Shown here piece after piece: positions 1,142 to 47,202 of a stretch of DNA of 64,000 bases. The DNA comes from Ulota crispa (Eukaryota; Streptophyta; Bryopsida; Orthotrichales; Orthotrichaceae): positions 1 to 64,000 of the forward strand of contig OY987250.1 in the NCBI GenBank assembly GCA_963920765.1, in the 5' to 3' direction. Numbering within the stretch: the first letter of the stretch is position 1; every line of letters begins with the position of its first letter. The translations under genes and the position numbers were made by a program. The notes under the pieces were generated by a model that saw nothing but the letters and a program-made list of their open reading frames with translations, was not told the DNA's origin and did no database searches.

Positions 1142-1694
1142 TTAACCCCTAAAGGCCCAAAGGGGTACGGACAAAACATAGATGTGTTATAAAATGGTAC
1201 TTTTGTAACTCTGATGAAGTTTGCTTCAAAAGAAAAAATAAGAATCATAATTTTTAGTAATTATCCGTATGGTCAAACACTCAAAAAAAGTTTTGGATTT
1301 TTATGTAATGAAATTAGAAGCATTTACCATTTAATATTCACCAAAATTACAAATTTTACTCATAGATTTCAAATTTCGGAATAATTGGTTAAAATTAAAC
1401 ATTCTATCCTAAACTTTAAAAATGCAATCTTTTGAAAGGAGAGAACATCATTAGTTTCTTGAAATAGTAAATTTTACAACTCTAGCAAATATTGAAGTAG
1501 TTGTCTTTGAAAAATTCTCCTTGGTGGAGTTTAACTTGGGTTGACATGATTCAAGTTAAGTTGGAAAGTAGACTTGATTTTATATTGCAAAAAATAAAAA
1601 TAAAAATAAAAATAACTTTTTTTTTCATCTCAGGCAGCCTGAAAAAAAACAAGCAGCAACTAGAAAAATGGTTGATTGGGCGCTTAGGGGTGAA
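1142..1694. mobile_element. TTAA-flanked element h (piggyBac-like termini)
   Basis: The left end reads TTAACCCCTAAAGGCCCAAA (1142-1161). The right end, read in reverse complement from 1694, is TTCACCCCTAAGCGCCCAAT. The termini therefore match as imperfect inverted repeats of about 20 bases. The left flank is TTAA and the right flank a diverged TGAA at 1691-1694. That TGAA is also the left flank of the next element, so the two abut on one shared target site. There is no transposase frame, so this is a non-autonomous element. The superfamily assignment is inference from TTAA plus CCC-starting ends. Confidence 0.6.
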
Positions 1695-2623
1695 CCCCTA
1701 AAGGACCGTTGTACCTTTGGAGGATGGGTTGAACTTTGGGCATGTACCTATGGCTGAACTGCTTTGTGTGATTCATTGAAACTTTTATTGAGGTGGGGAA
1801 TTCAAATATCTATGTGGGCATCTAATTTTTTCTTCATTCCGACATTTGATGAAGAAGTTATGCATGAATTTATGAAAATTTGGGGAGGACTGCCAGTCCG
1901 GGCAGCCCAAAAACTTTTTTGAGAATTATATATTTTTTAAATATAATTTTGAAATTGGTTCTTTAGATTTTTTTTTATACATGAGAAGCTTTGGATCATT
2001 CAATTTCAATCAATCACATGAAAGTTATGAGGAGTTTTTGTTTACAGGCAGTTATGGATTCTCTACTCTAAAATAAATTTTAAAGTCCTTTCATTTACTT
2101 GATTTTCAATATTTTGGAAAAAAATTAAACTAAAAAATGTAGATTGTTTATCACAAAACTATGACCGTTGGGATTTGAGTTTTTCATTTCAATAATTAAA
2201 TTTGTAACAATTTAGCGTTTTGATTCATTCTCTACTTCTTTTTACTTATTATTTTTCCCCATGTGTTGTATGGTTCCAATTGATTTGGAAATTCTCCCAC
2301 ACATACCTAACTTGATCTCCTACATGGATAAAATAAAGTACAATTTTGGGTAGAGCAAATTTTTGTTGTATGAATGGTCAAAGGCTTTTGAAATTTTTGG
2401 TCAGCATGGAATTTTTTTTTTCAATTTAGATGTAAATATCTCACTCCTCTTCATTGGGAATGAGCTGATTTTTTTCCGACAAGTACCTCTTCTAGTCTGG
2501 GGCAAAATCCTACTATTGGACTTGCCCAAAACCAAACATAAAATCCATTTTTACTAAACCTCCTAAAAATGGCAGTTTTTAGGGACTTTCTGAGAAAAAA
2601 GGGCTCGGTCCTTGAGGGGTTAA
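1691..2623 (+). mobile_element. TTAA-flanked element a
   Basis: The left terminus is TGAACCCCTAAAGGACCG; the right terminus in reverse complement is TTAACCCCTCAAGGACCG (to 2623). Between them lie two blocks shared with the minus-strand element at 30142-31336: one at about 1735-1900 (landmarks GGGCATGTACCTAT and CATCTAATTTTTTCTTCATTCC) and one at about 2280-2620 (landmarks ACACATACCTAACTTG, TGGTCAAAGGCTT and AATGGCAGTTTTTA). The first block also recurs at 44850-45000. There is no transposase-like frame. Shared ends plus shared interior show these are copies of one mobile family about 0.9 kb long. Confidence 0.7.
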
Positions 2624-3063
2624 ATGGACAGGTTTCAATTGTGCTAACAAATACCCCGCAGATGCAAAATTCAGGCCAGAAAAAAATCATACGGGAGCAT
2701 ACTAAGTGGGATGATTTTATTGGGTTGAGATTGAAAATGGCAAGCTAATTGTACTTGGAGCCTCCGATTCTCCATCAACCGGCACTATTACAGAGGTGAA
2801 TTTTGCTTTTATTAGGAAGTTTGAGTATGTGTTACCCTCAAAAAATGAGCGATTATTACAAGGACGGAGCCTCTTGAAATGTAGCCACTTGTTTGAATGA
2901 CAAGTTTTGGGTTGCCAAAACTGTGGTTCTCAAACGCAAACCAACACCCTTTTAGATTAATCAATTCAAACCTATGAGAATTGAAAATGGTAGATCGAGG
3001 GTTTCATTTCCAGCACTACACTAATTTTACAACAATATGTTGTTTTTTGGGAAAATGACTTAG
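2624..3063. other. Unassigned spacer between elements
   Basis: I see no gene, repeat partner in this window or structured feature. The last four bases before the next element (TTAG, 3060-3063) form the left target-site duplication of the MITE that follows. Confidence 0.4.
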
Positions 3064-3318
3064 AACGCGTTATCTGTTAAATTGGGACAAATGAAGGTAC
3101 CATTTTGTACTCCACCTTAAACCCAAAAAATCACCTTAAATCATATTCAAAGGTATCAGATTTAGTTTGAGCCACTAAGATTTTTCCCTCGCAAATTTCT
3201 CCTCTCAAGTGAAGATACATGTACCAAAAAAATGTTGAGCTCAATTTTTAGGAGGCCTCCTAAAACCTTCAAAAATCCCAAAATGTAAGCTTTGTCCCAA
3301 TTTAGCGAATAACGGGTT
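3064..3318 (+). mobile_element. 255-bp MITE, family M copy 1
   Basis: The left terminus begins AACGCGTTATCTGTTAAATT; the reverse complement of the right terminus begins AACCCGTTATTCGCTAAATT, followed by GGGACAAA in both. Each side is flanked by TTAG (3060-3063 and 3319-3322), a plausible 4-bp target-site duplication. The interior (landmark CTAAGATTTTTCCCTCGCAAAT) aligns in inverted orientation with the MITE at 30674-30931. It has no coding capacity. The superfamily is undetermined, because the ends and TSD do not match a textbook family I can name with confidence. Confidence 0.65.
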
Positions 3319-3546
3319 TTAGGTAATGGCAAATCAAACTAATGATGTGAAGAACAAGTAAAACGCCCTATTGAATGGCATCAATGTCACTAGAGATACA
3401 AACCGACCCTTATTCCTCATGACTTGGCTAGCTTTGCTATGACCTTGACACAATCTCAATACTAGCAAGTTTAAACCACTTGATCATCTTTGAGGTCTCG
3501 AAGTTCTCACACGAGAAACAACAAGTTGCAAATCGCAATTTAACAG

Positions 3547-3566
3547 TTCCATACCTTAGTTATTGA
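3547..3566. repeat. 20-bp direct repeat flanking foldback A (left copy)
   Basis: The 20-mer TTCCATACCTTAGTTATTGA occurs here and again, perfectly and in the same orientation, at 4552-4571, on the outer sides of the foldback element. The flanking pieces between it and the foldback arms (roughly 3567-3625 and 4502-4551) also share short words such as GGGGAAAAAA/AGGGAAAA and GGCC. It could be an unusually long target duplication or the remains of an older structure. Confidence 0.6.
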
Positions 3567-3625
3567 AAAAGCCTCCGTGGGGAAAAAACCAGAAGTCGGC
3601 CATGCTGAAATAAAAGTGGTGTGAA

Positions 3626-4501
3626 GTACAGTTGGGTACAACATACATACAAATTGCCATTTTGAGGTTGGTTGTTTCTTTGGTGAAATGTTAAGTATAA
3701 GCAATACATTTTTTTCAAAAAAATTACCATGGCATCCTTGCACAGTATCAATCCAGCATGCCAAATATCAGTTTCAAAAAAGAAAAACTTCATTTGTGGT
3801 GAATTTTTTGAGTGAATTTTTTTGGTTTTACATGATATTTTATTAAAAACAATTGGTAATGAATTTTTGAGATTTGATTTCATGGGTTTAAAGGAAACAT
3901 CCATATGCACATCTTTCATGCTAAAAAATACCCCCTTAAGTAACAAAAGTTTGATCAATGAAAAATTCAATGAAACTTGTGATAGGCCCAAATTTTGTAA
4001 AATACATATTTTTCATTTTTAATTAGCTTTTCATCAAGTAAACAAGATATCATGACTAAAGATACAAACCTACTCACAATATTTGAGTCAAACAACAAAA
4101 TTTGATTTTCATAAAATAAAATAAAAATTACAAAATTTGGGCCTATCACAAGTTTCAATGAATCTTTCATTATTCAAATTTTGTTACTTAAGGGGATATT
4201 TTTTAGCATGAAAGATGTGCATATGGATGTTTCCTTTAAACCCATGAAATCAAATCTCAAAAATTCATTACCAATTGTTTTTAATAAAATATCATGTAAA
4301 ACCAAAAAAATTCACTCAAAAAATTCACCACAAATGAAGTTTTTCTTTTTTGAAACTGATATTTGGCATGCTGGATTGATACTGTGCAAGGATGCCATGG
4401 TAATTTTTTTGAAAAAAATGTATCGCTTATACTTGGCATTTCACCAAAAAAACAACTAGCCTCAAAATGACAGTTTGTATGTTTGTTGTACCCAACTGTA
4501 C
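3626..4501. mobile_element. Foldback element A (long inverted-repeat transposon)
   Basis: Two arms of about 395 bases (3626-4020 and 4108-4501) are near-perfect reverse complements separated by a ~90-base loop. The ends are GTACAGTTGGGTACAAC and its complement. Landmarks in both arms include CATGGCATCCTTGCACAGTA, GAGATTTGATTTCATGGG and CATATGCACATCTTTCATG. Short frames in it are mirror images of each other, which shows they are by-products of the hairpin rather than genes. The same arm words and the same loop words recur in elements B (34801-35662) and C (45020-45920). An RNA read through this would form a ~400-bp duplex. The superfamily is unknown. Confidence 0.8.
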
Positions 4502-4551
4502 ATGCGAAAAAACCCCTATAGGGAAAAGGCCGGAAACCCAATGGGGGAAGA

Positions 4552-4571
4552 TTCCATACCTTAGTTATTGA
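4552..4571. repeat. 20-bp direct repeat flanking foldback A (right copy)
   Basis: Perfect direct copy of 3547-3566, about 50 bases outside the right arm of the foldback element. Confidence 0.6.
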
Positions 4572-4929
4572 GTGCATCCTTGATGCAATTGGGCACATAG
4601 AAAAGTTCCATTGCCAAAACGCTAGCATTTTCAATCACAATTTATCTCTTCGATCTTTTGCCGATCACAACTTGCAATAGTAGTGAAATCAACAAGGTTT
4701 TATTAAGAGCGTGTCTGCATAATCTGCCCTGCAGGAGATTTCTAAGGTTAGAACCAAGCATCTCACCTCAAGAAATGTGTAGAACACAAAAATCAGGAGT
4801 CAAGATGTCACTAGCATATTATCAAGGGAAAATTTTAAGGATACCCCTGAAGTTTGCCGTATTTGAATTGATATCCATAGTTTCTCAGAAATTGCACAAA
4901 TATCCGCCTTGGACCATAATTTTCAGGCC

Positions 4930-5420
4930 TTAACCCCTGAACGGCCCTAGGGCTCTGGAGAGACAGGGGTATTAGTCAAGTATTGCGTTCATCAAATTTC
5001 AAGAAGTGCAAAATAACATTAGAGATTGAAGCATTGTGTGATTGTGGTTGATAATAAAGGGTTTCATAATAGAGATTGAAGTATTATGTGATCAAGATTG
5101 ATACATATTAAATTTGTAACACCATATTTGTTAAATTGAGAAAAAGAGTACATTTTGGGACTTTCATTATTTCTGTCATTATGTGAAATTCAGCATATTA
5201 TAAAAGAAAAATACATGCAATTTTTTGTACAATATTGAAGTTTCAGTGATTACCTACAAGAATTTCAAATAACTTTCAATTTGAACTATAGCTATGCCTA
5301 CATTTATTGTATGTAAGATTAAGGTGAAGTACAAAGTGGTACCTCTGTTTTTCCCAATTTAACAAATATGGTGTTTTGTACATATGGCCAAAAAGGGCCT
5401 TTGGACCATTCATGGGTTAA
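4930..5420. mobile_element. TTAA-flanked element f, inserted in a MULE arm
   Basis: The ends are TTAACCCCTGAACGGCCC and, in reverse complement, TTAACCCATGAATGGTCC. The element interrupts the left arm of the surrounding MULE exactly at a TTAA. The undisturbed right arm reads CAGGCG-TTAA-TTCC..TTAGTTCTAT (complement of about 5530-5560), whereas the left reads CAGGCC-TTAA-[element]-TTAA-TTCTGTTAGTTCTAT. One TTAA in the empty arm and two in the filled arm is direct evidence for TTAA target duplication. Without the nested MITE the element is only about 230 bases, so it is non-autonomous. Confidence 0.75.
5118..5375 (+). mobile_element. 258-bp MITE, family M copy 2
   Basis: The left end is AACACCATATTTGTTAAATT; the right end is its complement (AATTTAACAAATATGGTGTT ending at 5375). 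Just inside come AAAAAGAGTACATTTTG on the left and complementary AAAGTGGTACCTCTGTTTTT on the right. Target duplication TTGT is present on both sides (5114-5117, 5376-5379). It is the innermost of three nested insertions: MITE M in TTAA element f in MULE T2. No coding capacity. Confidence 0.75.
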
Positions 5421-5651
5421 TTCTGTTAGTTCTATAGTGCATGCCACTTCTTTCTCCCTTGTGCGCACACTGCTTCTTCTCTGCTCTATTACACTCCTTG
5501 CTTTAACATTGATCATGGAAGTAGCCTGCACAATAGAACTAACCGGGGAATTAACGCCTGAAAATTATGGTCCAAGGGTATTCGATTTCTGAAAACCAGA
5601 GATATCTATTCAAATATGGCAAACTTCAGGGGTATTCATAAAATTTTCCCT

Positions 5652-6800
5652 ATTTATCAATGCTTGGAGGTTTGGAAAATAGTCACGTTGTACTTTTAAG
5701 AGATTCTATTAGATATATTCCAAACCTCAGATGAAAAACAGAATAATTTTCTTGAGGCGTTGTCGCGAGAGCAAACGGAACTTTCATTACCCAAGACTGG
5801 GCTTTCTCACGAGAAAACCTGAAAGTACTTAGCAAAAAGTGCAAGCATGAGCTATTTTTTTCATGAGAAATGGAGGAAGAAGATAAATAAACTAAACTTG
5901 CAACAACTGTGCAAAAGAAGGGTTCTTATTATGCAAAAAGGGGGCAGAGAAAAGAATAGGACTTGCGGAGGGATCGAGATCCTACTCAGCCTCAAAACCT
6001 TGTATCAAGGGAATTGAAACCCCTAACGTAAATGCAGAACAAACTTTATCGATCAGCCCAGGGTTTTAGCATCTGCTGAGGATGTTGGCTTCCAGTAGGG
6101 TTCTGCAACCGATTTCCAGGCGTAAAGGCCACGAGAACTCAAGCTTCGGAATAAGCATTGCAGCACCAGACTGGAATGAAGAACGTTGCGGGAACTAGTT
6201 TAAAAAAGACATTAAAAAACCAAACGATGTTCAACCAAAGAGTATCTGTACACAAGTTATGCACAGCAAATTATGAAACTTGCGAACAAGAAGAAGAATG
6301 CCTCTTGATGTTTTGAGGAACTAAGAGTGAATTTGTTTGAACTACTATTCAAAATCGTAGAAGAGAGTGAGGACTAAGAGCAAACTTTTATGCTGCTTGA
6401 GAATCTCAAAACTTAGAAATGACGAACAATTTTGCATTGTAGTGGAAAACTTGATTGTTGTTACTAGGTTTTATAATTCTAAGGTAGCGTGAAAGTTTGC
6501 CCTAACACTTTTTTCCAAGGTCCTAATACCCCTTTCCAAGGTAGACTATGCATTTCACCTCACAAGGGCATGATTAGTGTGCCATTATTGAGATTACCAA
6601 ACCTTGGTATTGCTTGTAATCAACAAAGATTCTTGACAAGCACCTCAACTAGTTTCTTGATTTCTTCGTTGAATATGGAAATGTCTTGTTGCATGCACTT
6701 TTAAGATGTAGTGATTTAACTAAGAAAGGATTAGTTGCAAATCCAAATCACCCAAATTATATGAAAAGTCTTACAAAACGTCATTGAAGAGGACAATTCT
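5652..6800. other. Left flank of the telomere block, no gene recognised
   Basis: About 1.1 kb with a somewhat higher GC part at 5980-6190. I find no open frame with a recognisable domain, no TIRs and no copy elsewhere in the window. The transition into telomere repeat at 6801 is abrupt. Confidence 0.4.
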
Positions 6801-9277
6801 CCCTAAACCCTAAACCCCTAAACCCTAAACCCTAAACCCTAAACCCTAAACCCTAAACCCTAAACCCTAAACCCTAAACCCTAAACCCTAAACCCTAAAC
6901 CCTAAACCCTAACACCCTAAACCCTAAACCCTAAACCCTAAACCCTAAACCCTAAACCCTAAACCCTAAACCCTAAACCCTAAACCCTAAACCCTAAACC
7001 CTAAACCCTAAACCCTAAACCCTAAACCCTAAACCCTAAACCCTAAACCCTAAACCCTAAACCCTAAACCCTAAACCCTAAACCCTAAACCCTAAACCCT
7101 AAACCCTAAACCCTAAACCCTAAACCCTAAACCCTAAACCCTAAACCCTAAACCCTAAACCCTAAACCCTAAACCCTAAACCCTAAACCCTAAACCCTAA
7201 ACCCTAAACCCTAAACCCTAAACCCTAAACCCTAAACCCTAAACCCTAAACCCTAAACCCTAAACCCTAAACCCTAAACCCTAAACCCTAAACCCTAAAC
7301 CCTAAACCCTAAACCCTAAACCCTAAACCCTAAACCCTAAACCCTAAACCCTAAACCCTAAACCCTAAACCCTAAACCCTAAACCCTAAACCCTAAACCC
7401 TAAACCCTAAACCCTAAACCCTAAACCCTAAACCCTAAACCCTAAACCCTAAACCCTAAACCCTAAACCCTAAACCCTAAACCCTAAACCCTAAACCCTA
7501 AACCCTAAACCCTAAACCCTAAACCCTAAACCCTAAACCCTAAACCCTAAACCCTAAACCCTAAACCCTAAACCCTAAACCCTAAACCCTAAACCCTAAA
7601 CCCTAAACCCTAAACCCTAAACCCTAAACCCTAAACCCTAAACCCTAAACCCTAAACCCTAAACCCTAAACCCTAAACCCTAAACCCTAAACCCTAAACC
7701 CTAAACCCTAAACCCTAAACCCTAAACCCTAAACCCTAAACCCTAAACCCTAAACCCTAAACCCTAAACCCTAAACCCTAAACCCTAAACCCTAAACCCT
7801 AAACCCTAAACCCTAAACCCTAAACCCTAAACCCTAAACCCTAAACCCTAAACCCTAAACCCTAAACCCTAAACCCTAAACCCTAAACCCTAAACCCTAA
7901 ACCCTAAACCCTAAACCCTAAACCCTAAACCCTAAACCCTAAACCCTAAACCCTAAACCCTAAACCCTAAACCCTAAACCCTAAACCCTAAACCCTAAAC
8001 CCTAAACCCTAAACCCTAAACCCTAAACCCTAAACCCTAAACCCTAAACCCTAAACCCTAAACCCTAAACCCTAAACCCTAAACCCTAAACCCTAAACCC
8101 TAAACCCTAAACCCTAAACCCTAAACCCTAAACCCTAAACCCTAAACCCTAAACCCTAAACCCTAAACCCTAAACCCTAAACCCTAAACCCTAAACCCTA
8201 AACCCTAAACCCTAAACCCTAAACCCTAAACCCTAAACCCTAAACCCTAAACCCTAAACCCTAAACCCTAAACCCTAAACCCTAAACCCTAAACCCTAAA
8301 CCCTAAACCCTAAACCCTAAACCCTAAACCCTAAACCCTAAACCCTAAACCCTAAACCCTAAACCCCTAAACCCTAAACCCTAAACCCTAAACCCTAAAC
8401 CCTAAAACCCTAAGACCCTAAGACCCTAAACCCTAAACCCTAAACCCTAAACCCTAAACCCTAAACCCTAAACCCTAAACCCTAAACCCTAAACCCTAAA
8501 CCCTAAACCCTAAACCCTAAACCCTAAACCCTAAACCCTAAACCCTAAACCCTAAACCCTAAACCCTAAACCCTAAACCCTAAACCCTAAACCCTAAACC
8601 CTAAACCCTAAACCCTAAACCCTAAACCCTAAACCCTAAACCCTAAACCCATAAACCCTAAACCCTAAACCCTAAACCCCTAAACCCTAAACCCTAAACC
8701 CCTAAACCCTAAACCCTAAACCCTAAACCCTAAACCCTAAACCCTAAAACCCTAAACCCTAAACCCTAAACCCTAAACCCTAAACCCTAAACCCTAAACC
8801 CTAAACCCTAAACCCTAAACCCTAAACCCTAAACCCTAAACCCTAAACCCTAAACCCTAAACCCTAAACCCTAAACCCTAAACCCTAAACCCTAAACCCT
8901 AAACCCTAAACCCTAAAACCCTAAACCCTAAACCCTAAACCCTAAACCCTAAACCCTAAACCCTAAACCCTAAACCCTAAACCCTAAACCCTAAACCCTA
9001 AACCCTAAACCCTAAACCCTAAACCCTAAACCCTAAACCCTAAACCCTAAACCCTAAACCCTAAACCCTAAACCCTAAACCCTAAACCCTAAACCCTAAA
9101 CCCTAAACCCTAAACCCTAGACCCTAAACCCTAAACCCTAAACCCTAAACCCTAAACCCTAAACCCTAAACCCTAAACCCTAAACCCTAAAACCCTAAAA
9201 CCCTAAACCCTAAGACCCTAAACCCTAAACCCTAAAACCCTAAACCCTTACACCCTAAACCCTAAACCCTAAACCCT
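6801..9277 (+). repeat. Interstitial telomeric repeat block (CCCTAAA)n, ~2.48 kb
   Basis: About 350 units of the plant-type 7-mer CCCTAAA (TTTAGGG on the other strand) in one orientation. From about 6918 to 8365 I see no variant unit. Near the right end variants accumulate: CCCCTAAA (8367), TAAGACCC (8410-8425), CCCATAAA (8650), CCCTAGACC (9117), AAAACCC, and CCCTTACACC (9247). At the left edge there are only two variants (near 6815 and 6910). Pure distal units and degenerate units next to subtelomere-like DNA are what a former chromosome end facing left would look like. An assembly join at 6801 cannot be excluded. Confidence 0.97.
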
Positions 9278-9278
9278 T

Positions 9279-17480: not shown

Positions 17481-19208
17481 TAGTTTTTCTTGATTGGAAG
17501 ATATTGGCAATTTCATCCATTTTTTGATTTTAGCGTAATGGTAGTAATGTCAATTCAAAGTGAGATTTACGATAGGAACACCCATAAGCATTAGTGTCCA
17601 CATAATTGTCACTTCTAAAATCTAGGAAAATCTGTGGAAATAAATAGCTGTAATTACAAGAATGTACAACATGTGAACATGAACCACTTGTGTTGGGTGT
17701 AATCATGGTTGTCATATTGGACCGCCCCCCCAACTCTTGCATGAAAAACATCCTTGTCAATTTTTGTTGAAAATCAACCACCCCTCCAACCATTGCTGCC
17801 ACGCACGACCCTTCTTTCGCCATGCTCTCAACAACTCACCTCCCCATCAATGACCCCGTCAGCTTGTGCTTTAAGCAATTCCAGGTGAACCATATCTAGA
17901 TCATGGATGTGCATTGGAAGGATGCTATCAAAACAACTGAGGAGATGCTAGAGTGGACAAAAATTGCAAGTTACTATTTCTGCTAAGAAAAGGAGAAGTA
18001 TTTTTCTTGACTTCTCGGCCATAATAGACTCCCCATCACTGCAATCAGATTATTTATTGCTTAAAAGCCATGGACATGACCCTCTGGAGCTCTTCCTTGG
18101 GATGGGAAGACTGCGACTTTGTGGGTGAGATTCAAGGGTATGGTAGTCAGAGGTTGTGGTTCTCTTGCTTGCAATAGCCTGTGTTGGAGCGGTGCTTGCG
18201 AGCTAGGTAAGTGGAGCGCTTGACAAGTGTAACCTTCTAGTCAAGCCTCCTCCCTCAATCTCCCCATGGTGATTGATTGCATAATCCGGGAAGAATGTAC
18301 TCCATAACAAGGAATTGACCTTTGCGCTAAAGCCTCAAGTGTCACCCTTGTTGAAGCACTCACCCCCCCAAGAATGTATTGCACGTGCCTCCAGAAGAGG
18401 AAATGATGCCATTGAAGGTTCAACACTCTAGGAGATCAAAAAGTGCTAAGAGGTAGTTGTCTCTCACGCATCCATGCAGCATTGGTGAGGCGCAAAATGA
18501 AGCATGCCTAAGGTTTGGTTGCACCACAATTTGTCACCCAAGGGTGCAAAACCAACTACACAAACTCCCATGTTGGCAACATCAATTTTGCATCAAATGC
18601 TAGCAATGTTGGCATGGCCAAATCCATGGTGCACGGATGAAATCCTAAAGTCCTTGCATGCACAGAATTGTAAACACCAACCACTCTCATCCAATGTAGG
18701 CAACTCCTTTCAAAAATCATTACTGCACCTTCTCCTAAAAAGCACAAAAAACCCTTAATCACACTCCTGTGTTACTGCCAAATCTGCTCCATTGCAACCT
18801 ACCTACTACAATCAATAAGCACTAGGGCAACGCCACCCTCTCCCATTAAACCATGCCACTCTCTTGCATTGAACGCATCTAACCAATGGTGTGGTGCGTT
18901 TCCTGTCATTTCACCAAAGAGATAATGCTAGCATAGAGTGGAATCACATATCGACCCTTGAATACACTCATTTTTCCTCCAAGTTCCTCATTTGGCTCAA
19001 AAGCATGTACATTGTATATCTGCCCATGTATAAACAAAAATGGAAGACTGTAAAACAATTTGCAAACCCTGGCAATCGTTGCATATGGTTGAGGGAAGCA
19101 TAAGTTCAAAGTTTTCCAACTCCAAGGCAAAGCACAACATGGAAAGGCCTCCAAATACAAGCAAGACACCTTGTATTGGTCACAGGTGCACTACGTATCC
19201 TTTAGGGG
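17481..19208. other. Gene-free stretch right of the composite repeat
   Basis: Higher in GC than its surroundings but without a convincing gene. Short frames on both strands (for example 17530-17823 minus, 18556-18762 minus) have no recognisable motifs. Near the right end lies a solitary terminus of the TTAA-type family in inverted orientation (CCTTTAGGGGTTAA, TTAA at 19209-19212), for which I find no partner. Confidence 0.4.
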
Positions 19209-19212
19209 TTAA

Positions 19213-22135: not shown

Positions 22136-23034
22136 TTAACCCTTAAATGCCCAAAGCACCAAATTTTAGTGTCCAAAATTTTTAGGAAACTTTGAAACTA
22201 TGTGCAAGGAGCACATTTGAATATTTTTAGTTTTTTTACAAAGGAGTTTTGGGCTGAAGGTAGCTTCAGCGTTCAGTTTTAGTTTCCTTCATAACTTATT
22301 CCAATTTTGTTTTGGTGGAAGCTAAACTGCAAGTATATGTTTTGTGTCATGCATAGTGTCATGAATAGTGTCACAAAGCCTATGACAAGTTGCCACATTG
22401 AGAAAACGGGTATCAAGTTGAGAAAAAAGTGAAGATTTTCCATGAGCACTCTCTTAGGTAGCAAGGGCCCTTTTGCTAAAATTTTGTCATCCAAGAAAAT
22501 CTAAAAGTGCATTTGGACTAATTGCACTTGGAATGTCTTTGTTATAAAAATCAGCGCTCATCCACCACCAAATTTTCTTTCATTCATAATTAATAATGAT
22601 TGATAATTAAAACTAAAAAACTTATTAACGTTAGGGAATTGTGCTTTGACCATTGCATTGCAAGCTCATTTGCAAAACTGTGGTTATGGAATTGGAAGGG
22701 CAGCCATTAGTTTTCAAGGAACAATAAACACTAAAGCATTCTAAGTGGTTGTTTTCCAATTTTGTATCCAAAAGTCACCAGTTTGTTTAAGGTGTTTTGG
22801 ACAGCTCCAAAACAAGAAAAAATTCCACACTCATCCACATTCAGTCACAAGTATCTTAAAATCCGCATGGCCATTTTGGATTTTTTTGGTAGCGCCATCT
22901 AGAAGCCTTGAAGTTTAAGATTTTATGATTATAGTTTTAATTTGATGTGTAATAATGATCTTGCAAGGACAATTAAGAAACTTCAAAACAACCTCACAAA
23001 AACAAGAACAGCACCCTTGGGCATTTAGGATATA
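22136..23034. mobile_element. TTAA-flanked element d
   Basis: The left terminus is TTAACCCTTAAATGCCCAAA; the right terminus in reverse complement is TATATCCTAAATGCCCAAGG, followed by GTGC where the left has GCACC. The left flank is TTAA; the right flank has decayed to TATA. At about 0.9 kb the length equals that of element a. A second possible right end, AAGGGTTAA at 23731-23739, is less well matched. No transposase frame. Confidence 0.55.
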
Positions 23035-23439
23035 AATTTGACTTTTGATGAATTGTTGACAATGGATAGTTGAGAAGCTTTCTACATTTATTGAATTCCT
23101 ATTCCCTCAATGATATCAACACATATTTATTAAAATTAGATAGATACTCCTTGGCTCATTTTACATACTCCAATGACAAGAACAATGTAGAATTTGCCTC
23201 TTTTTATTTCCAATTAAACTTCAAAACAAATCTTGTAAAAAAATTGTATATATAGTATGGATAGTGTATTCACAATGAATATTTAATCACTTTTAAACCA
23301 AACACCATCTAAATGAAACATCTTTCTATTGACTTTACAATGTTCACCACTAAAAATCTAAGCGTTTACAACTTATTCATACGGCATACATATCAACCCA
23401 TAAAAGCACAGGTGGACAATAAATCATCTGCTAGCTTTG

Positions 23440-23655: not shown

Positions 23656-24489
23656 AGTACAGGCTAGGCACTTGCTAGAGCACTTTAGTTCTATAAGGCA
23701 GGTCAAGCCACAATTGTGAGCCCAACGATTAAGGGTTAAACATGCTTAGATTTGTTTGGTTTTTACTTGTTTACTATTATTTATTTATAGTTTACATAGC
23801 AATGAAAACTAGTAAATGTCTAACAACAAGAATTATTTTAGAGAACATCCAATGGAATATGACTTTGAGGACATCTAATAAATCTTTTTGCATGTTTGTG
23901 GTTTTCTAAACTTTAACAATTGCTTAAATGGTACGTATGATACAATAACTAGCATCAAGAAAGTAGAGCATATGATCTTTACAATTGTTAGGTCCTATTC
24001 ATCAATATCTTAAAAGTTGCTTAAAGACAATATGTAGGATAATCTATAATCTTAGCAAATAAAACATTTGACGATCTTGAAAGTTAAGAAATCATTCCTA
24101 CAATTTTACAATGAAAGATATCTCACTACTGCAAGGTTCTTTTTGCCACTTATTGCCCATTTAGATGTTTAAAAAATAGTTTGAGATTCCCTGAAAAGTA
24201 ACTCTTATACATTCTAGAACAAACAAAATTTGTAAGTATGTATTTACCTTGGGGGCCAAATAACATGATCTACGATCTGATTCTCAAAAATTCCATTCAG
24301 TCTTGAAAAAAGTGTTCCCCTTTGCATGAGAAGCAAGCTACTTCCAAATGTTTGACCTACATGTCAATTTGGAATATATCACAAGACAAAGTGCAACAAG
24401 TAACATAAAAGCACTTGTAATTTTAGGGTTTAGGATTTAGGATTTAATTTTTTTTATTCTGTTTATATTTAATTCATAGCAAATAAAGT
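23656..24489. other. AT-rich spacer
   Basis: No gene or paired repeat seen. Contains the lone AAGGGTTAA terminus at 23731-23739 and one telomere-like word on the opposite strand (TTTAGGATTTAGGATTTA at about 24427). Confidence 0.4.
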
Positions 24490-26531: not shown

Positions 26532-26777
26532 TTAACCCCTAAGCGTCACAACAAAGGTTTTTGGATCCAGACTTCAAGAACATTTTAATCATCAAACTTT
26601 ACAATTTTCATATCCGTATGGTGGATTCTACACAAACTATAGATTTGCACTTGTCAAGAAGTTGCCAACAAATTTCTAAGATGGATTTTTTAGTTGTTGC
26701 TTATACCCCAAGTTATTCCATTTTGTTTAGGATGCTCTTCCAAACATGATGTTCTATTTGTGACGCTTAAAGATTAA
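26532..26777. mobile_element. TTAA-flanked element e, 246 bp
   Basis: The ends are TTAACCCCTAAGCGTCACAA and, in reverse complement, TTAATCTTTAAGCGTCACAA; 17 of 20 bases agree. TTAA is present at both sides (26532-26535 and 26774-26777). The inner part of the terminus (GCGTCACAA) differs from the AAAGGCCCAA type, so this is a separate subfamily with the same outer motif. Non-coding. Confidence 0.7.
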
Positions 26778-29700
26778 ATATTTGGTGCTTTTGAAATTTG
26801 CGCATATGACCATACATTTGGACCTTGTACTATTGAAAAGACCAAAAAACACAACAAGCCTAAATAATTTGTATGAAATTTATGGTCCACAAGTCCATAA
26901 AATTGCAAATACAACAAAATAGTCAAGCTTTTTGAACATTTTTAAAATAGCATATGTTTGTGCATAAAATACCAATGCAAAAACATATTGGCATGTTGCA
27001 AAATCTCAAAACCAGATGACTTTATTTTGAGTACTCCAAAATTGAATTGTGGAATTCCGTACATATTAATATCATTATGGACAATCTAGTTTTAGTACAA
27101 CACATTATTTCAATCAATAGTTAGTTGATAAGTTGAATTGGAAATTTCATAAACATGATGAATAAAAGCTTCATAATCATGTTGTTCATATCTATTATGT
27201 CATGCTCATTATTTAAGAGATAAAATGATATTTTCTTTGGTCTTATTTACTTTGAATATTGCAAATTCTTATATTTGTAAATGTCACAATTTTGTCTAAT
27301 TCTAAATTAGCTCACAAGCCATGAGAAGCATAATTTCAGCTTTTAATATTTCAAGCAAGTTCTAATATCCAAATATTGCTTTGAATAAATTTGAGGAAAT
27401 TTGAGGAAATTTGATAATTATAGTGCTTGACATGTCAAAGTTCATATGATGCAATTTTAATAAATATTGCAAAATTGATGATTATTATTGTATGTTTTAT
27501 TATATCAAATCTCATAGTTGGTACCTAAAATTGTCACTTTATCAAAATAATTAAAACCAGTTTTGGTAAGATAAACACATCTTTAGTATACAAGTTTTGA
27601 ATTGTTCTATTTTAGTTACTATGATATGAATCCACAAGATTTATTTTTTTGCACCAACAAATTGCATTAGCAAGAAAAATTCAGATATAACATTGTTTTT
27701 TGGTATTCAATATGCACAAATTTCCAAATAGAAAACCAGAAAAACTACAAATGTTACCAAATACAATGTGGTGGGGGTTGACAATACTTAACCCTTTAGA
27801 GACCACCAAACCATATTTTGGTGCAAGAGAGTGGGTTTTAACATGTATAGTAAACCGCTCAATAATTTGGAAATTGGTCTTGAAGAACACATGTGTGCAC
27901 AAGAATATTGCATCCAACTAAACAAATAAGAATGAAATTGGGTATGTGAGCTAACAAATGATGATGGTTATATGACACAGCCTCAAAATATGCATCCATT
28001 TTTGGTCAAAAATGAATCAAAGCAACAATTCAATACCTCAAATATCCAAAAAGGATTTCATATCTCAATTGCAAAATCCAAAAAAAAATCAAATTACCTA
28101 AGAAATACGCTCATATAGTTTCTCTCTATGGTGTTAGATTGTAGTATTTGAAGATCTACTGAAATGGTGTTGTCATTTCATCTCTTAAATTTTTCATCCT
28201 CCATGGGAGGCCAATTCATCATTGTTTTCTCCAATCGTATTCTTCATGGCATTTATCATATTTTCTATAGAATTGTTTTTAGATGGTAGCTAAAGTGGGA
28301 TACTTGACCATTTTTGTCCACTTAGCTACACCTTGTGATTGCTATTTTTATCCATTTTGTGTGAAAGTACTCTCATTGAAAAGGTGTGGAAGTCCACTTT
28401 CTAAAAATATAAGGTTCTTTTCAAGCAAAGCTCACATGAAGCGATAACATCCAAAACTACACAAGCATGAAAACTACAGATTTTTCACTTATGACATACT
28501 CAATAATCATAATGTTTCATTTTGAATTGTAGATCTAGTTGAAATCTTCTTAATTTATAATAAATAAGGCAATCTTTCCATTTATATAGTTGGACTATTC
28601 AAATTGGGTCCAAATTTGATTGAATTGCACATCTAAGTTCACCATTGTTGTTGCTAGTGGATTTTGAGAAAATGGGTATGGTCTTTGGTTAACTTTAGGC
28701 TAGAGTTACATATAAATTATGTGTCCTTCCTATTCTATATCTCCTTATGCTTCATTTTTTTATGAGACAATCACAAATTTTATTTGTTTAACTCTTTTGT
28801 GTGTTTTTTAACCCTTTTTCCATATTTTTCTTTCAAAAGGCACAAAGTTGTTGGAGACATAAATTTGTGTACAAAAAAATGTAAAAGACAAAATTTCACT
28901 TTTGGAAGTGGCTGCAAAAAAACTTGTTTTCAAACTTCAAGCACTAAAATCTTGCAACTACAAAATTTGTTTCAATTACTCAATTATTGCGTCCCGCATT
29001 AATAGTGCTAATTTGCACTAATCCAAAAAAGGTATGTACAATATGGAAGGCACCTTAATGAAGTAGTTTGTAGTAATTTAACTCAATATATTGTGGACTA
29101 CAAAATTTGATTACTACCTCAAAAACGTAAGTCAAGTGGCCAAAATTTTGAGAATCTTTAGGAAGCATGTATCTCAATTAAATAGAGTGTGAAAGATGTT
29201 CCATTATAGGAAGGGTGCGACCATGTTGTTGCTTGGACAAACAACAAAAATTTGTGCTCAAAACTTTACTTGGAGGACAAGGGCAAGCAACATATCACAC
29301 CTTCACACTAACTAGACAAAATTCACCAAAACTAAAGACTAATGAAGGAGTCTCACATTTTTCAATGTCTCACACTAAGAAAAATAACTTGTGCAACACC
29401 AATTTTTTCTAAAAATGAGGGGTATATTTGAACAAACTCACCAAAATATCCAATCCTCCAATTAGACCCATCAATTACTTATTTAGAAAAAGTTGGAGGT
29501 TTTAGCCTTGCTTTTGGGCGGAAAAGAGTATTTCAAAAATTGGTTCGAGACTCAAAACATTATACCCTACACAACCAAACAACCATAGGGGATAGTATGT
29601 ATGGTGCTAAATAACTCATTTGCTACCAACAAATAGATTTAAATTCAAATCTTGACTAGGTCACTAGAACCGCATTGATTGATATTCTAACTTCTTTGTT

Positions 29701-30141: not shown

Positions 30142-31336
30142 TTAACCCCAAAAGGCCCAAGTTCTTTTTTCTATAAAAGCCATTAAAAACTGCCACTTTT
30201 AGGGGAATGGGTAGAAAGGAAGGAACAAGTTTTTTTTTGAAATTTTACCATAGGATCTTGCCCTAGATTATAAGAGGTGTTTTTGGGAAAAACTTTAGTT
30301 CATTTTAGATGGAGAGGAGTGAAATATTGACACCTAAAGTGAAGAAAAATAATTTTTTCCCTTCTTGCCCAAAATTTCAGAAGCCTTTGACCACTCTTGT
30401 AGCAAAAGAATTGCTTTGCACAAAGTTGAAATTTGATTACGCAAGCTAAAATGACCAAGTTAGGTATGTGTAGGAGAAAGTTCAAATGAGTTGGAGGTGT
30501 ATAACATACTTCAAAAAACCTTTGAATGCTAGGAGGTTGAAAATCTGCAAATACATTAAGCAAAATTGGCGGATTTACGTGAACTTCTGTAGTTTGAATT
30601 ACATGGATCCAAACAAAGAAAACCAAGATTTCCTAACCGACTAGAACTTGGTAATAAAAATGAAAGAACAATTAACACCATATTTGATAATTTGGGAAAA
30701 AGGTGTCATTTTGGGACTTCTGCAGGTTGTACATGATCATGTACAATCAAGCTAGTAGCATTTTTTTTTTGGCACGTGCCCTCACCTAAGAGGAGGAATT
30801 TGCAAAGGAAAAAATCTTAATGGCTTGGAGTGAATCTGATACTTGCAAATCTGATTCAACGTGACTATTCTAGATCAAGGTGAAATACAAATGGAACCAC
30901 TGTTATTCCCAAATTTAACAAATATGGTGTTAAATACACAAACTGCTCAAAAATGTAAAGTACCAAATTTTACAAGAGGCAAGAGGAATGGAGGTAGGAA
31001 GTCTCCCAAAATGAGCCCCTTCCACTCCAAATCCCTTTGTCGAAGTGTCCACATCTTGTGCCCATAGATAGGAGCTGATATTCTTTGGAGTCAAAACTCA
31101 CTTACAAAAGAGAAGCCTTGCACAAACTGCCCCTTCTTCCCTAGTTTTGATGAATTCTTGCACAACTTCTTTGTTAAATGTTGGAATGAAGAAAAAATTA
31201 GATGGCCACAAAGGCATTTGAATTCCCATTTTGTTTGCTAAAAGTTTCAAAAAATCACACAAACTAGTATAGCTATAGGAACGTGCCCAAAATTCCACTT
31301 GGCCCCAAAGGGGTCACTTGGGCTTTTAGAGGTTAA
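30142..31336 (-). mobile_element. TTAA-flanked element b (with nested MITE)
   Basis: The left terminus is TTAACCCCAAAAGGCCCAAG; the right terminus in reverse complement is TTAACCTCTAAAAGCCCAAG. TTAA flanks both ends (30142-30145, 31333-31336). Read on the minus strand, the interior repeats the two blocks of element a (1691-2623) in the same order. Between them sits a family-M MITE (30674-30931) absent from element a, which explains most of the extra length (1195 versus 933 bases). No transposase frame. Confidence 0.75.
30674..30931 (-). mobile_element. 258-bp MITE, family M copy 3 (nested in element b)
   Basis: The left end is AACACCATATTTGATAATTT and the right end its complement AAATTTAACAAATATGGTGTT-like. 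The termini are nearly identical to those at 5118-5375, and the interior matches 3064-3318 on the opposite strand (CTCCTCTTAGGTGAGG type). The four-base flanks are AATT and AAAT, so the target duplication is not clean here. Confidence 0.7.
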
Positions 31337-31429
31337 ACTATAAACGCCCAATTAGTCATAACATTTACTCCTCTATAGTGCTCCACAATGATTTGGCAAG
31401 TACCCACCAATTATAATGCTATTTCTAAA

Positions 31430-31650
31430 AATTGTAATAGTCAACATTGCATGCTGGCCTCATGAAAATTGCAAGAAGGGCACGAGGAGACCTAACACAA
31501 TGTCTTTGAAATTTTCTCACAATTTGGGTTACCCAAAATCATGAGTACATTTGGTGAGGTTGTTTTTTGCCTTCCATGATGAACCATGTGTTTATGATCT
31601 CTTTCAAAAAATTGTAAGAAAAATGGCCTTTTTTGATTTTGCAAATTTAT
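31430..31650 (-). repeat. Dispersed repeat Q, copy 2
   Basis: Inverted copy of 23440-23655. On the minus strand it shares ATCATAAACACATGGTTCAT, CCCTTCTTGCAATTTTCATG and a GTTGACTATTACAA tail. It lies just outside TTAA element b. Confidence 0.55.
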
Positions 31651-32402
31651 TTTTTCATGCAAGGGATGAAAAACATCCCCTTAGCATGTAAGCATCAAAA
31701 GTGCACATGATGTTTACAAAGTGCTTTTAGTGTTTCAATAAAAATGTACATGATACTTTTAAAATATTGTCATCTTTGCAAAAGCAAAGCTAGAATTGCC
31801 ATAGTTGCTAACACATTCACAATTTTTTTATACTTTACATACAAACATATAGTGAGAAAAGAAAGGATTTGTTATCTATAAACACAAGAGTAAAAACTAA
31901 TAATTAAAAACCTTTGCTTTTAGAACTAGAATCTAGTATTGTAATAAATGCTAAAACGTATCATTGTTAAAGTATTTGTAGTAGGTGTTTGAAGCCTTGC
32001 AAAGAGTTGTTTATGACCTCCATTGAATGCTTTAAAAGATTTGTATTTTATTTCTTTTTTCATTACAAATGTATTGTACATTCTCATACTAAATACAAGG
32101 TATTGCTATTGCCACCCCAATCAGATGTTTTTGCAAATAACACCACATGTCCACTACTCTCTTCACCATTTTTTTGCTCAATGTTCTTTTCTCATGGAAG
32201 TTGACACTATTGGTATGTCTCAATTATGACAAGATAGAAATGTTTGACAATAAGTTGCAAGCATGGTCATACAAAAGTGAAGAAAACAAATAGACCATAA
32301 ACCCTCAAAGTAGCATTTTCTAATTGAACACTCTTTCACTTTGATCTTCTTACTTTGATACAATGTCACAAGTTGAGAATGTGCATTGTAGTGGAGTGGC
32401 AA
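31651..32402. other. AT-rich spacer
   Basis: No gene, repeat partner or structure recognised. Confidence 0.4.
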
Positions 32403-38675: not shown

Positions 38676-38694
38676 GAAATCAAGAGCGCCTCAA

Positions 38695-41210: not shown

Positions 41211-41348
41211 AATACACGCTTGAAAATTATGGTCCAAGGATATTTGTGCAATTTTTGGAAAACCAAAGGCACCTATACAAATATTGCAAACTTAATGGAT
41301 ATCCATCAAATTTTTCCTTTTTAATGAAGGGTCTAAACTCTGAACCAA

Positions 41349-41481: not shown

Positions 41482-41484
41482 CAA

Positions 41485-43424: not shown

Positions 43425-43590
43425 CCATCCCATGCCCATGATCCAGTCCATCCCATACCCATGATCCAATCCATCCCATACCCATGATCCATCCCATCGC
43501 ATGCCATGACCCATCCCATCCCATGCCCATGACCCATCTCATCCCATGCCCTTGACCCAGCCCATCTCTTACCCATGGCCCTCCATCCAA
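43425..43590 (-). repeat. Minisatellite of CCCATGATCCATCCCAT type
   Basis: About eight degenerate units of roughly 20-25 bases (CCCATGCCCATGATCCAGTC, CCCATACCCATGATCCAATC and so on). Overlapping minus-strand frames encode only Gly-Met-Gly-Trp-like reiterations (GSWAWDG, MGMGWDGSW) and are by-products. On either side the words CACTCGCCATTCCA and GGGCCATC/GGGCAATT recur at about 43352 and 43741 in direct orientation. Confidence 0.7.
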
Positions 43591-43714
43591 TGCCGGCAAG
43601 TAAGGTAGAAAATTTGATTGTAGAAAATTTAGTTATTAATTAGTTTCTCAACCGCGTTACATTCTATTATTTTGATACTCAACTACCCAACTAATGATAT
43701 AAGACTATTATATG

Positions 43715-43736
43715 AATAGATAGATAGATAGTTGAT
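43715..43736. repeat. (ATAG)n microsatellite
   Basis: Short run ATAGATAGATAGATAG preceding the second CACTCGCCATTCCA word. Confidence 0.6.
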
Positions 43737-44214
43737 CCGTGCACTCGCCATTCCAGCAAAGGGCAATTTGTGTGCTTTGTCTAGCTCAAATTGTAAGTGA
43801 ACAATTGAGCAAAAAAAATTAACATGCAATTTTTTATTTATTTTTTAATAACAAATAGAGTATCATTATAGAAAGAAGTGCCCTCCATGGCCTCCATGGC
43901 ATGTCTCCACTTCACGTTAAAAAATATTCCATGGGATAATATAAACTCAAATTCAATTTTAGATTCAAATCAATTTGCCTCTTCATCTCCCTCCCTACTC
44001 GTTTTATCTCAATTTCAAATTCAAGTTGAAAAAAGATTCAATGGGTTCCACCAAAGATGTCCTTTCACACCCAACATCCATGTTCATCACTTTGCCCCTT
44101 GGCCTGCGGCCAATCACAAATTTTATAATCATATGTGAACTATCCAACTAATACAATCAGCCGACATTGCATTCTATTATAGAAATTAGATACAATTTAT
44201 TGGATTTTTGAATT

Positions 44215-44365
44215 AACTACAAGGGAACACTATCAAGTTGGATAGTTTTTGTAGGTTTGGTTGTCTTGATTTGAACATGTTTTTGTCACTTTGGATGATG
44301 TTTGTCATTTTAGACACATTTAGTCAATTTGGACATGTCAATTTGGACTCGATTTCTTGTGCTAC
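44215..44365. mobile_element. CACTA-like miniature element, diverged
   Basis: The left end AACTACAAGGGAACACT matches the inverted right end of 32403-32564 (CACTACAAGGGAGCAGT). The interior shares CAATTTGGACATG and GTCACTTTGGAT words. The right end TTTCTTGTGCTA is a decayed complement of CACTACAAGAAA. I could not find a clean target duplication. Confidence 0.5.
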
Positions 44366-44792
44366 GGCTTGGAGATATTAGATATGACCAAAATACCTCA
44401 ACCTTTGAAGAATCCAAAATGTTCTTGGCTTGTTATATGAACATTAAAGTGTATTCATGACAATCATGCCCTTGAAATTGACCAAACATCAATCAAATTG
44501 TAACCTTTTAGTTATTTTTTGTTGTTATTGCTACTAATAGCTTAGATAGTCTATCTACATGTTGTCCTAAAATGGTTCATTTGCCTAAATCTTCCGCAGC
44601 ACATTGTTTTTCTTGAGTTAGATCCTCTACTTTATAGAACTTGAACATTGACTTGCAAAAGCTTTGCATAAGTGTGCAACTTTGAGTAGTAATTTTGTAG
44701 GGTGTTATTAACCCTTAAAGATGCAAAGGTTTTTTTTATTTGGATGACAAAAAGACAATTTGTTGGATGTAAGAAGGTCATTCTTCATCCAT

Positions 44793-45019
44793 TTAACCCC
44801 CAAAAGCCCAACTGTCTCCGCGAGGGACAAATGGATTTTGGACATGTACCTATAGCTAAACTACTTGATGTGATTTTTTGAAACTTTAATTGTAGGTGGA
44901 GAATTTCAATACCTACAAGGGGATCTAAGTTTTACCTCATTCCAATACTTGAAAAAGAAGTTGTGTAAGAGATTTTAGTACCTAGTGAGAATAGGCAACA
45001 AGGGCAGCAACTTTCCTTT
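44793..45019 (+). repeat. 5' part of a TTAA element related to elements a and b
   Basis: Begins TTAACCCCCAAAAGCCCAAC and continues with GGACATGTACCTATAGCTAA, GATTTTTTGAAACTTTAATT and CCTCATTCCAATACTTGAAA, matching 1735-1900 and the minus strand of 31100-31300. The homology stops where foldback C starts, so C probably interrupted it. Confidence 0.65.
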
Positions 45020-45920
45020 GTACAATACCCGGAAGGATATTCTTGCCAGTCCTCTTTTGCACTCTTCTTCAATCACTAAATTCAAAATCTAACAAAATAT
45101 AACTGACATTTTATTAACTTGCATCAATTGTACTATATTCTTATTAGCAATCTTAATCTAACATACCAAAATTTCAACTCCAAAAAACCAAAAATCAAAT
45201 TATGGTGAATTGTTTTGTATAATAACCATGGTTTCACAAAGAAAGTGATTGAAAAACATTGGTGATGAATTTTGGAGATTTGATTGCATGGATATGTAGG
45301 AAACATCCAAATGCACACTTTCCATGGTAAAAGATAACCCCTTAAATAACATAATTTTAAATTAGAAAAAATTCAATGGAACTTGTGATATGCCCAAATT
45401 TTGTAGAGTAGATATTTTTGTGTGTCAACTAGCTATTCATGAGGTAAATATAATATCATGTTCAAAAGTACAAACTTAGCCACAATGTATGAGTGAAACA
45501 ATAGAATTTAATTATTATAAAGAAATGTCATCTTACAAAATTTGGGCATATTGTAGGCTGCATTGAAGTTTTTCTAAATCAAAGTTTTGTTACTTAAGGG
45601 GTTATCTTTACCATGGAAAGTGTGCATATGGATGTTTTCTACATATCCATGCAATCAAATCTCCAAAATTCATCACCAATGTTTTTCAATCACTTTCCTT
45701 GTGAAACCATGGTTATTATACAAAACAATTCACCATAATTTGATTTTTGGTTTTTTGGAGTTGAAATTTTGGTATGCTAGATTGTGATTGCTAGTAAGAA
45801 TAGAGTATGATTGATGCAAATTAAAAAAATGACAGGTATATATTTTGTTAGACTCCGCATTTAGTGATTGAAGAAGAGTGCAAAAGAGGAGCAATAGGAA
45901 TATCTATTTGGGTATGGTAC
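45020..45920. mobile_element. Foldback element C
   Basis: The ends are GTACAATACCC and GGGTATGGTAC. Arms of about 400 bases (45020 to ~45425 and ~45530 to 45920) are complementary throughout, for example CCTCTTTTGCACTCTTCTTC, CATACCAAAATTTCAACTCC and GATTTGATTGCATGGATATG. The loop (AATATCATGTTCAAAAGTAC) corresponds to that of elements A and B. Mirror-image short frames occur in the arms, as expected for a hairpin. No coding capacity. Confidence 0.8.
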
Positions 45921-46344
45921 TTGGGAATTGACTCCCAAAAGGGGCAGCTTGCAAGGGTAGAATAATGCAACAAAGTGGGCATCCAAGGAATGGGTTTGTG
46001 TTAGAACCTAGTGCAACTGACATGCTAATGGAGGGAGGGCCAGGGCTAGATGGCATGCCACTTTGGCTGGAGCTTGCTGCTTTGCAACTTGACGCCTTGC
46101 CTAGCCTTCTTGCTTGAACTTTGCTCTCAAACCTTGCAAATTGTGCCCTTGAATCGTGCATGAATTGAGCGTGGCTTTCCAAAACCGCACAGGATGAACT
46201 GGCTCCTCGCTTTCAATTTTATACCCTCGTATTTGGGTCCCTTCATTTGTTGTGCTTTTGAGAAACTGCTTTGTATTTGGTTCTTCACCTTCCCATGTGC
46301 TGTGCAACAAGATACCTTATTTCTTTGTAAGGGTATACCGATTG

Positions 46345-46605
46345 GCACCCCAAAATGCATGCATGTAAGGAAAAGTTGGCAAAATTTGGAATGAGGTAAC
46401 AATTTGTGCACGTTCATCCAAAAAGCTTACTGATATAAGCTACCTTCATCCAAAATTTGGCAAGCAAGGCGTTTGGATAAGCAAGGATGTGGCAGTTTCA
46501 TCCACTTTTTCACACTAATTTCTTTGTATATTGGTTGCTAGAGGAAATCCGAGGTAAGATTTAGGCAAAAATTTGTTAGAAAAAAGAACCTTGCCATGCA
46601 ATCTA
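46345..46605 (+). repeat. Dispersed repeat R3, copy 2
   Basis: Same orientation as 640-925. Shared words include GTAAGGAAAA, AGCTTACTGATATAAGCTA, TTTCATCCACTTTTTCA and GGTAAGATTTAGGCAAAAAT. Confidence 0.6.
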
Positions 46606-46930
46606 AAGAAGTCAAGACTACAATGGACATCCTTGTACAAAATATCAAATAGAAAAAACATAATCAATGATTTTACAAATTAGATTTTTGATGCTAAAAA
46701 CTAGACTTCAAAAGGAATAGTTCAAGAATATACACTACTAAAATTAGCAATTCAATTAGGATTTAGGGGTGTTCAAAATGAAAGCAACAGCAAGATGTGG
46801 TGCCTTTGGCATCTAGGGGTTAAGTGTTTTAGGCTTCATTGCCTTATAACCAAAAGTGAAGATATGCAGAAATTGTATTTTTTGGCTTTCAAGGCATGAC
46901 CAACATGATTTTCTAACTTGCACTATCTAG

Positions 46931-47202
46931 TTAATCCTTAAATGCCTCATATTAGGCATAGTAGACACTTTATAAAAGTGATAGGTTTTACTTTGAGATC
47001 TCAAATAGCTCACTAGAACTATATTGATATGTATTCCAACTTCTTTGTTAATATGAAATGTTGTGAGCGTTAGTTGATCTTAAATGTAGTAAAGTTCTTT
47101 GTTGATATTGACTATAGTAAAAGTGTGGATTCATTACTAATACAAGAAACATGTTTCATACTGTGCTAGTTGTAGCAGCATGCTCAAACATTTTAGGGTT
47201 AA
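46931..47202. mobile_element. TTAA-flanked element g, 272 bp
   Basis: The left terminus is TTAATCCTTAAATGCC; the right terminus in reverse complement is TTAACCCTAAAATGTTTGAG. TTAA is at both sides (46931-46934, 47199-47202). The interior aligns with 29650-29790. Non-coding. Confidence 0.6.

Follow-up and report, generated by a model that had tools for sequence, protein, structure and literature searches.

TTAA-flanked miniature elements, probably of the piggyBac superfamily, and piggyBac transposase loci in a land plant genome

Elements of the window and their target sites

The first 64 kb of contig OY987250.1 from Ulota crispa, referred to as the window, contain a series of short elements with shared inverted termini, many of them flanked by TTAA (Table 1). 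The window is the start of contig C9 in an assembly of 274.8 Mb and 157 contigs. An initial annotation had suggested that the elements belong to the piggyBac superfamily of DNA transposons, and this suggestion was followed up by comparison with the remainder of the genome. About 295 kb were fetched from the same genome and compared with the window, with the best 12 matches taken for each stretch; fetched stretches carry L-numbers and contigs carry C-numbers.

The terminus coordinates were confirmed by direct reading of the window sequence. Eight elements with shared inverted termini had been listed initially. Five of these are well supported and two, at 26532 and 46931, are probable, whereas the stretch at 44708–46823 proved to be a composite. 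Direct reading also agreed with the earlier count of five elements with intact TTAA on both sides (4930, 26532, 30142, 44708, and 46931). Relatives of the elements at 1142, 1691, 22136, and 30142 have one border or the other that coincides with an element end or misses it by a few bases, and the right end of the 22136 element was corrected from 23034 to 23035. For the 26532 element no relative was found in the sampled DNA. Two of the three termini that had been described as lone, those ending at 19212 and 23739 on the minus strand, are indeed unpaired. The third, at 27788, forms the left terminus of a 905-bp element that has five relatives, and it is similar to the 3' end found in one of the transposase lineages (L049, L052, and L053).

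The 19-base terminus TTAACCCCTAAANGCCCAA matched the window 1, 4, 2, 4, and 8 times at 0, 1, 2, 3, and 4 mismatches, respectively. The corresponding means of dinucleotide shuffles (n = 40) were 0, 0, 0, 0.075, and 0.525. Both the matches and the shuffles refer to 53.5 kb, the window from which the telomere-like and TTCATCCA arrays had been taken out.

Table 1. Positions of elements, unpaired termini, and the natural empty site in the window
Position	Strand	Feature	Target site and context	Relatives in sampled DNA
1142..1694		Miniature element, ~545-bp family	Left TTAA intact; right junction, common with next element, TGAA rather than TTAA	L045, 87%; L046, 81%; same span
1691..2623		Miniature element, 630–950 bp group, GGACC ends	Adjoins 1142–1694 at one target site	L030:5925-6843, 81%
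4930..5420		Miniature element	TTAA both sides; within left arm of an inverted repeat	Partial relatives only
5518..5642		Opposite arm of same inverted repeat, natural empty site	One TTAA; 81% over junction with 4930–5420 flanks	
19190..19212	-	Unpaired terminus TTAACCCCTAAAGGATACG		
22136..23035		~900-bp miniature element with ATGCCCAA ends	Right target site decayed	L005, 81%; L042, 74%; partial spans
23717..23739	-	Unpaired terminus TTAACCCTTAATCGTTGGG		
26532..26777		Probable 246-bp element, inverted ends CCCCTAAGCGTCACAA / TCTTTAAGCGTCACAA	TTAA both sides	
27788..28692		905-bp element, TTAACCCTTTAGAGACC end	TTAA both sides	Five, 75–77%; four over nearly whole span
30142..31336		Miniature element; ends match GGCCC/GGACC group, interior longer	TTAA both sides	
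31333..31655		Start of further element, only left end placed	Shares TTAA of 30142–31336	L046, 79%
44708..46823		Composite: ends at 44708 and, separately, at 44793; another repeat at 45169–45773; 650-bp-family end at 46603–46823		
46931..47202		Probable short element	TTAA both sides	Interior partly resembles sampled 233–267 bp elements

The terminus in the genome and its element families

Genome-wide, the 19-base terminus gave 5101 exact matches (2550 forward and 2551 reverse), and the reversed control gave none. A 15-base terminus, searched as a pattern without TTAA, gave 6130 exact matches. TTAA stands directly before 83% of them, which bears out the proposal that TTAA flanks the family throughout the genome. 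As background, about 0.7% of positions start a TTAA (1799 in 264 kb of DNA, most of it not a random choice). A sample of contig C1 was also analyzed (20 stretches of 10 kb, 200 kb in total, picked around known termini and therefore non-random), with TTAA again left out of the pattern. The share preceded by TTAA was 31 of 32 for exact 15-base termini and 12 of 14, 20 of 27, and 25 of 46 at one, two, and three mismatches, respectively. In each of the 17 elements obtained as plus/minus pairs (L009–L025), TTAA lay on both sides and the outer flanks were unlike; the pattern used for this set itself contained TTAA.

When 77 candidate elements from the window and the fetched DNA were compared with one another, some overlapping loci being counted twice, they fell into two large clusters of 24 members (mostly ~650 bp) and 23 members (mostly 630–950 bp). 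Several small clusters carried other ends, such as TTAACCCTTTAAGGACCAC, TTAACCCTTAAACGACCAA, and TTAACCCCTGAGCGCC. Among 116 full-length element pairs, the best identity was 92.2% and the median 83.2%; the copies are therefore old rather than young.

Eight abutments at a shared TTAA were counted among 134 ends and 1799 TTAA sites of the sampled DNA. Because this number is close to the ~5 expected from random choice of TTAA by our own estimate, no special preference for insertion beside other elements is claimed. At L027, the same terminus with identical flanks occurs at 254 and 2001, 1747 bp apart, perhaps through a tandem duplication that included the element end.

Empty sites

For each filled element, the two flanking sequences were fused at a single TTAA and matched against the sampled DNA, with at most four relatives shown per element. 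Fifteen distinct elements had a relative across the junction, two loci holding the same element being counted once. For seven of them at least one relative carries TTAA at the empty site, with top identities of 93% and 90%, and some other relatives of these seven differ from TTAA there. Paralogous empty sites with a single TTAA, which had been called for as a check, thus exist, and one lies within the window itself (Table 1). The TTAA target site duplication of piggyBac was found, with eight of the 15 cases other than a clean TTAA.

piggyBac transposase loci

The initial annotation had implied a helper elsewhere in the genome, and a transposase of the fitting type is present, with at least 116 loci matching PF13843 (DDE_Tnp_1_7) and two full-length coding copies. 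The PF13843 profile search gave at least 120 matches in at least 116 loci on contigs C1–C11, all above the curated cut-off, with a best E value of 1.3e-73. These counts are lower bounds because scoring covered 116 of the 528 first-look candidates. Six transposase loci were fetched, and seven of the nine open frames scanned match PF13843 with E values from 1.2e-25 to 4.1e-67. The profile had no match in 14 control genomes; LEAFY is absent from the same genomes too, so that this control is uninformative on plants.

The L052 protein aligns to the solved piggyBat and piggyBac chains (3.6e-18 and 6.6e-16). It has Asp at all three presumed catalytic places, in the motifs VDE, CDN, and GGVDVADQ, which we take to be the catalytic places of piggyBac. 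Cysteine-rich C-terminal ends are visible in the relatives P0001 and P0003; nine host frames gave no Pfam match to the C-terminal cysteine-rich domain. At L050, about 270 bp with GT...AG borders (L050:2838-3115) separate two transposase frames and look like an intron. L050 could be a domesticated gene, with only a weak end nearby.

Ends of the transposase-coding elements

DDE_Tnp_1_7 was found between TTAA-bounded ends in one family for which both ends were placed, and in a second lineage for which the 3' end was placed. The first family is represented by a 5308-bp element at C1:30793800-30799107 (L054 and L055). It contains transposase frames, is bounded by TTAA, and has TTAACCCCTTGAGGACAAAGG at its start and TTAACTCCTTGAGGACTATGAGG when read inward from the other side. 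The element is inserted at a TTAA within a miniature of the 545-bp family. Four intact copies of that family, including the window element at 1142–1694, read through the insertion site with one TTAA. About 2.2 kb on, a further copy of the 545-bp family was hit at the same TTAA by a different element, a miniature; both copies lie within C1:30793418-30803005 (L054 and L055).

A second full copy of this coding family, 5230 bp in length, lies at a different site with unlike flanks (C2:24506994-24512223). It was compared with the C1 copy at its two ends and spans the PF13843 locus C2:24508776-24509831 by coordinates. The two copies are 90% identical over the first 1007 bp and 94–97% over the last 324 bp, with matches that begin and end at TTAA. 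Their four ends are CCCCTTGAGG in three cases and CTCCTTGAGG, with a CTCC start, in one; all are TTAA-flanked and begin with CCCCT or CTCCT. Short inverted ends starting with CC(C/T) are found in miniatures and coding elements, with this one full-copy end of the four departing as CTCC. The sequence TTAACCCCTTGAGGAC occurs exactly three times genome-wide: in the C1 element, 2.4 kb from the PF13843 locus spanned by the C2 copy, and at C1:6469733, which is not near any listed PF13843 locus.

The second lineage (lineage A; L049, L052, and L053) has a 27-bp 3' end common to all three loci, AA(T/G)CAACCA(T/C)GGTC(G/C)(C/T)TAAAGG(G/A)T(T/C)AA, given as TTAACCCTTTARSGACC and also as CCCTTTARSGACC. L052 and L053 match at 79%, and the match reaches to within a few bases of this end. 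The end pattern TTAACCCTTTARSGACCRTGGTTG occurs 152 times genome-wide at no more than one mismatch. Among 100 listed places of these 152, four lie within 6 kb of the 116 PF13843 loci, compared with about 0.5 expected in any orientation. All four are located 1.5–2.4 kb on the 3' side of the transposase locus and point in. Only three of these associations are independent, because the pattern was made partly from L049, which is one of the four. The initial annotation had looked to a longer relative that codes for DDE_Tnp_1_7 and has ends identical to those of the miniatures. Two full-length, TTAA-flanked coding copies were found, but their ends (CCCCTTGAGG/CTCCTTGAGG), like the lineage A 3' end (CCCTTTARSGACC), are not identical to the miniature ends.

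Assignment of the miniature elements

Coding piggyBac elements are present in the same genome as the miniatures. The assignment to piggyBac is supported by TTAA targeting, by empty sites with a single TTAA, and by PF13843 loci in the same genome. The window elements are very probably non-autonomous miniature inverted-repeat transposable elements (MITEs) of the piggyBac superfamily in the nuclear genome of a land plant. That the genome is from a land plant is indicated by a SAM_LFY (LEAFY) domain, by plant-type telomere repeats, and by a Copia element. The SAM_LFY domain at C4:16275377 (E value 1.2e-27, with five weaker matches besides) aligns to ginkgo LFY in the PDB (1.1e-23).

A transposase of the piggyBac type would bind the CCC-starting inverted repeats of about 14–19 bp at the element ends, excise the element, and insert it into a TTAA, which would become duplicated. 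The transposases found here, or related ones, may have moved the window miniatures, and excision and joining presumably followed the mechanism of animal piggyBac. Transposition activity is probably past, because the copies are old and at least one stop lies within the PF13843 match in 108 of the 116 transposase loci.

Several observations weigh against the piggyBac assignment. Among the 15 empty-site cases, four had only TCAA, CCAA, or CTAA in the relatives, one had TTTAA or TATAA (the left site of that element is itself decayed), and three gave junctions without a clean alignment. In L049 the third catalytic place is occupied by Asn. No end of the kind sought beside the transposase loci was present at L051 within the fetched 6 kb, and the end at L050 was weak. 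A coding element with exactly the CCCCTAAANGCCCAA ends of the commonest miniatures was not found. The A-variant of this end, TTAACCCCTAAAAGCCCAA, has a PF13843 locus within 6 kb at one of 100 listed places (119 in all), with 0.5 expected; it is not enriched beside transposases and occurs there at the frequency of chance.

The last two observations would fit an explanation in which only the coding elements are piggyBac and the abundant CCCCTAAANGCCCAA miniatures were moved by a different TTAA-targeting transposase. We consider this unlikely. The coding elements, which resemble the miniatures in end pattern only, share with them the TTAA site and the CCC start. The coding end CCCCTTGAGGAC and the miniature end CCCCTAAAGGAC differ at just 2 of 12 bases. 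Moreover, a coding element and a miniature were found at the same TTAA in two copies of one MITE. A comparable likeness in pattern links coral piggyBac and coral MITE ends (PMC2872659; statements on cited papers, here and below, refer to the passages that were available).

Kolobok, another TTAA-targeting superfamily, is a very improbable source of the elements. It also duplicates TTAA, but its termini are of the form 5'-RR...YY-3' (PMC9587614), whereas the elements studied here start with CC or CT and 5'-RR termini were not found. The Kolobok transposase differs as well, and for the coding elements Kolobok is contradicted by their PF13843 transposase.

PIF/Harbinger, with a 3-base TTA/TAA duplication, and Tc1/mariner, with a TA duplication, are both named among plant MITE types (PMC10004981). 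Miniatures of either kind could imitate TTAA elements if the neighboring bases were conserved by chance. This is likewise very improbable: the outer T never varies on either side among the 17 pairs that were fetched, the whole TTAA stands in seven of 15 empty sites, and the coding elements belong to PF13843. Neither the 3-base duplication nor the TA duplication was found.

An origin by chance, or by spreading of the CCCTAAA telomere repeat, which the end resembles and which forms a telomere-like array in the window at 6801–9277, can practically be dismissed in view of the shuffles, the reversed controls, the paired ends, the distinct families, and the empty sites.

Relatives of the transposases and known piggyBac systems

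The piggyBac superfamily is usually treated as an animal system. Protein searches with the host transposases returned 16 and 25 relatives, most from sources without an organism name; the two named relatives are insect piggyBac-derived proteins with 33% identity. A midpoint-rooted tree was built from 31 rows, six from the host, several of them partial, and 25 picked by hand from the 41 relatives. All six host rows and ten organism-unlabelled rows form one group with a support of 100/100, and the two insect-named rows fall outside. The group splits into two deep lineages, both holding host rows. Because several host rows are incomplete and many relatives carry no organism label, the tree suggests, but does not prove, a plant piggyBac clade. 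Such a clade might be old in land plants and comprise two or more deep lineages, and it might have diversified in this plant group rather than arrived recently from animals, becoming the source of a large share of the DNA transposons through thousands of TTAA miniatures. We regard this extended scenario as a serious possibility that falls slightly short of being probable.

The elements share with the known members of the superfamily (IFP2 of Trichoplusia, piggyBat) the TTAA target, CCC-starting ends, DDE_Tnp_1_7, and, in L052, the three catalytic Asp residues. They differ in their land plant host, whose sampled proteins group apart from the two named insect proteins. The coral elements AmiPB1-6 and the coral MITEs (CMITEs) likewise use TTAA, and their ends follow the rule CC[C/T]T with repeats of 12–19 bp (PMC2872659). 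The coral ends CCCTTTAACGCCC and CCCCTCAGTGTCCG are near the host ends CCCTTTAACGACC and CCCCTAAATGCCC in pattern. However, CMITEs are about 100 bp long (PMC2872659), whereas the elements sampled here are mostly 230–950 bp and have thousands of exact ends.

According to the initial annotation, piggyBac has rarely if ever been described in land plants. As far as the label goes, this is too strict. PiggyBac is one of seven angiosperm MITE superfamilies in a review (PMC10004981), and PiggyBac has its own row in a table of fern repeats, with 1230 copies and 0.00% (PMC6890710). The abstract of an animal survey states that piggyBac has been isolated from plants too (PMC10813416). The angiosperm MITEs agree with the present elements in label and plant host; the review passage gives no transposase, in contrast to the coding elements described here. 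In the partly covered literature on plants, bryophytes, and mosses, no paper was found that describes coding piggyBac elements from a land plant. In a moss genome paper, the one passage matching piggyBac contained the word piggybacking (PMC10619864). As a foreign tool, piggyBac has been used in plants such as rice (PMC4309413), and as of 2017 it had not yet been tested in Physcomitrella (PMC5505980).

The present case is that of a known superfamily in a type of host from which there are few records of it. A plant genome with piggyBac transposase genes of its own, together with thousands of matching miniature ends, would widen the natural host range documented by coding elements. Plant-adapted transposases and ends become available for testing, and it becomes testable whether plant piggyBac is of old, vertical origin or was transferred.

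Other features of the window

A 2.5-kb telomere-type CCCTAAA array occupies positions 6801–9277, beginning 6.8 kb into contig C9, and is followed by a degenerate TTCATCCA satellite that extends to about 17 kb. The array is either an internal telomere repeat or a question of assembly. At 3626–4501 lies a long foldback whose 326-nt arms are 97% complementary and separated by 224 nt; repeats of a similar kind are also present in the sampled DNA and close to 45169–45773. An Rfam scan of the window gave no matches. A Pfam scan of ten window frames returned Copia pieces and a weak GPCR match below its cut-off, and nothing else. The Copia pieces belong to a decayed retrotransposon at 53978–56967, with weak gag, SH3-like, and RVT_2 matches.

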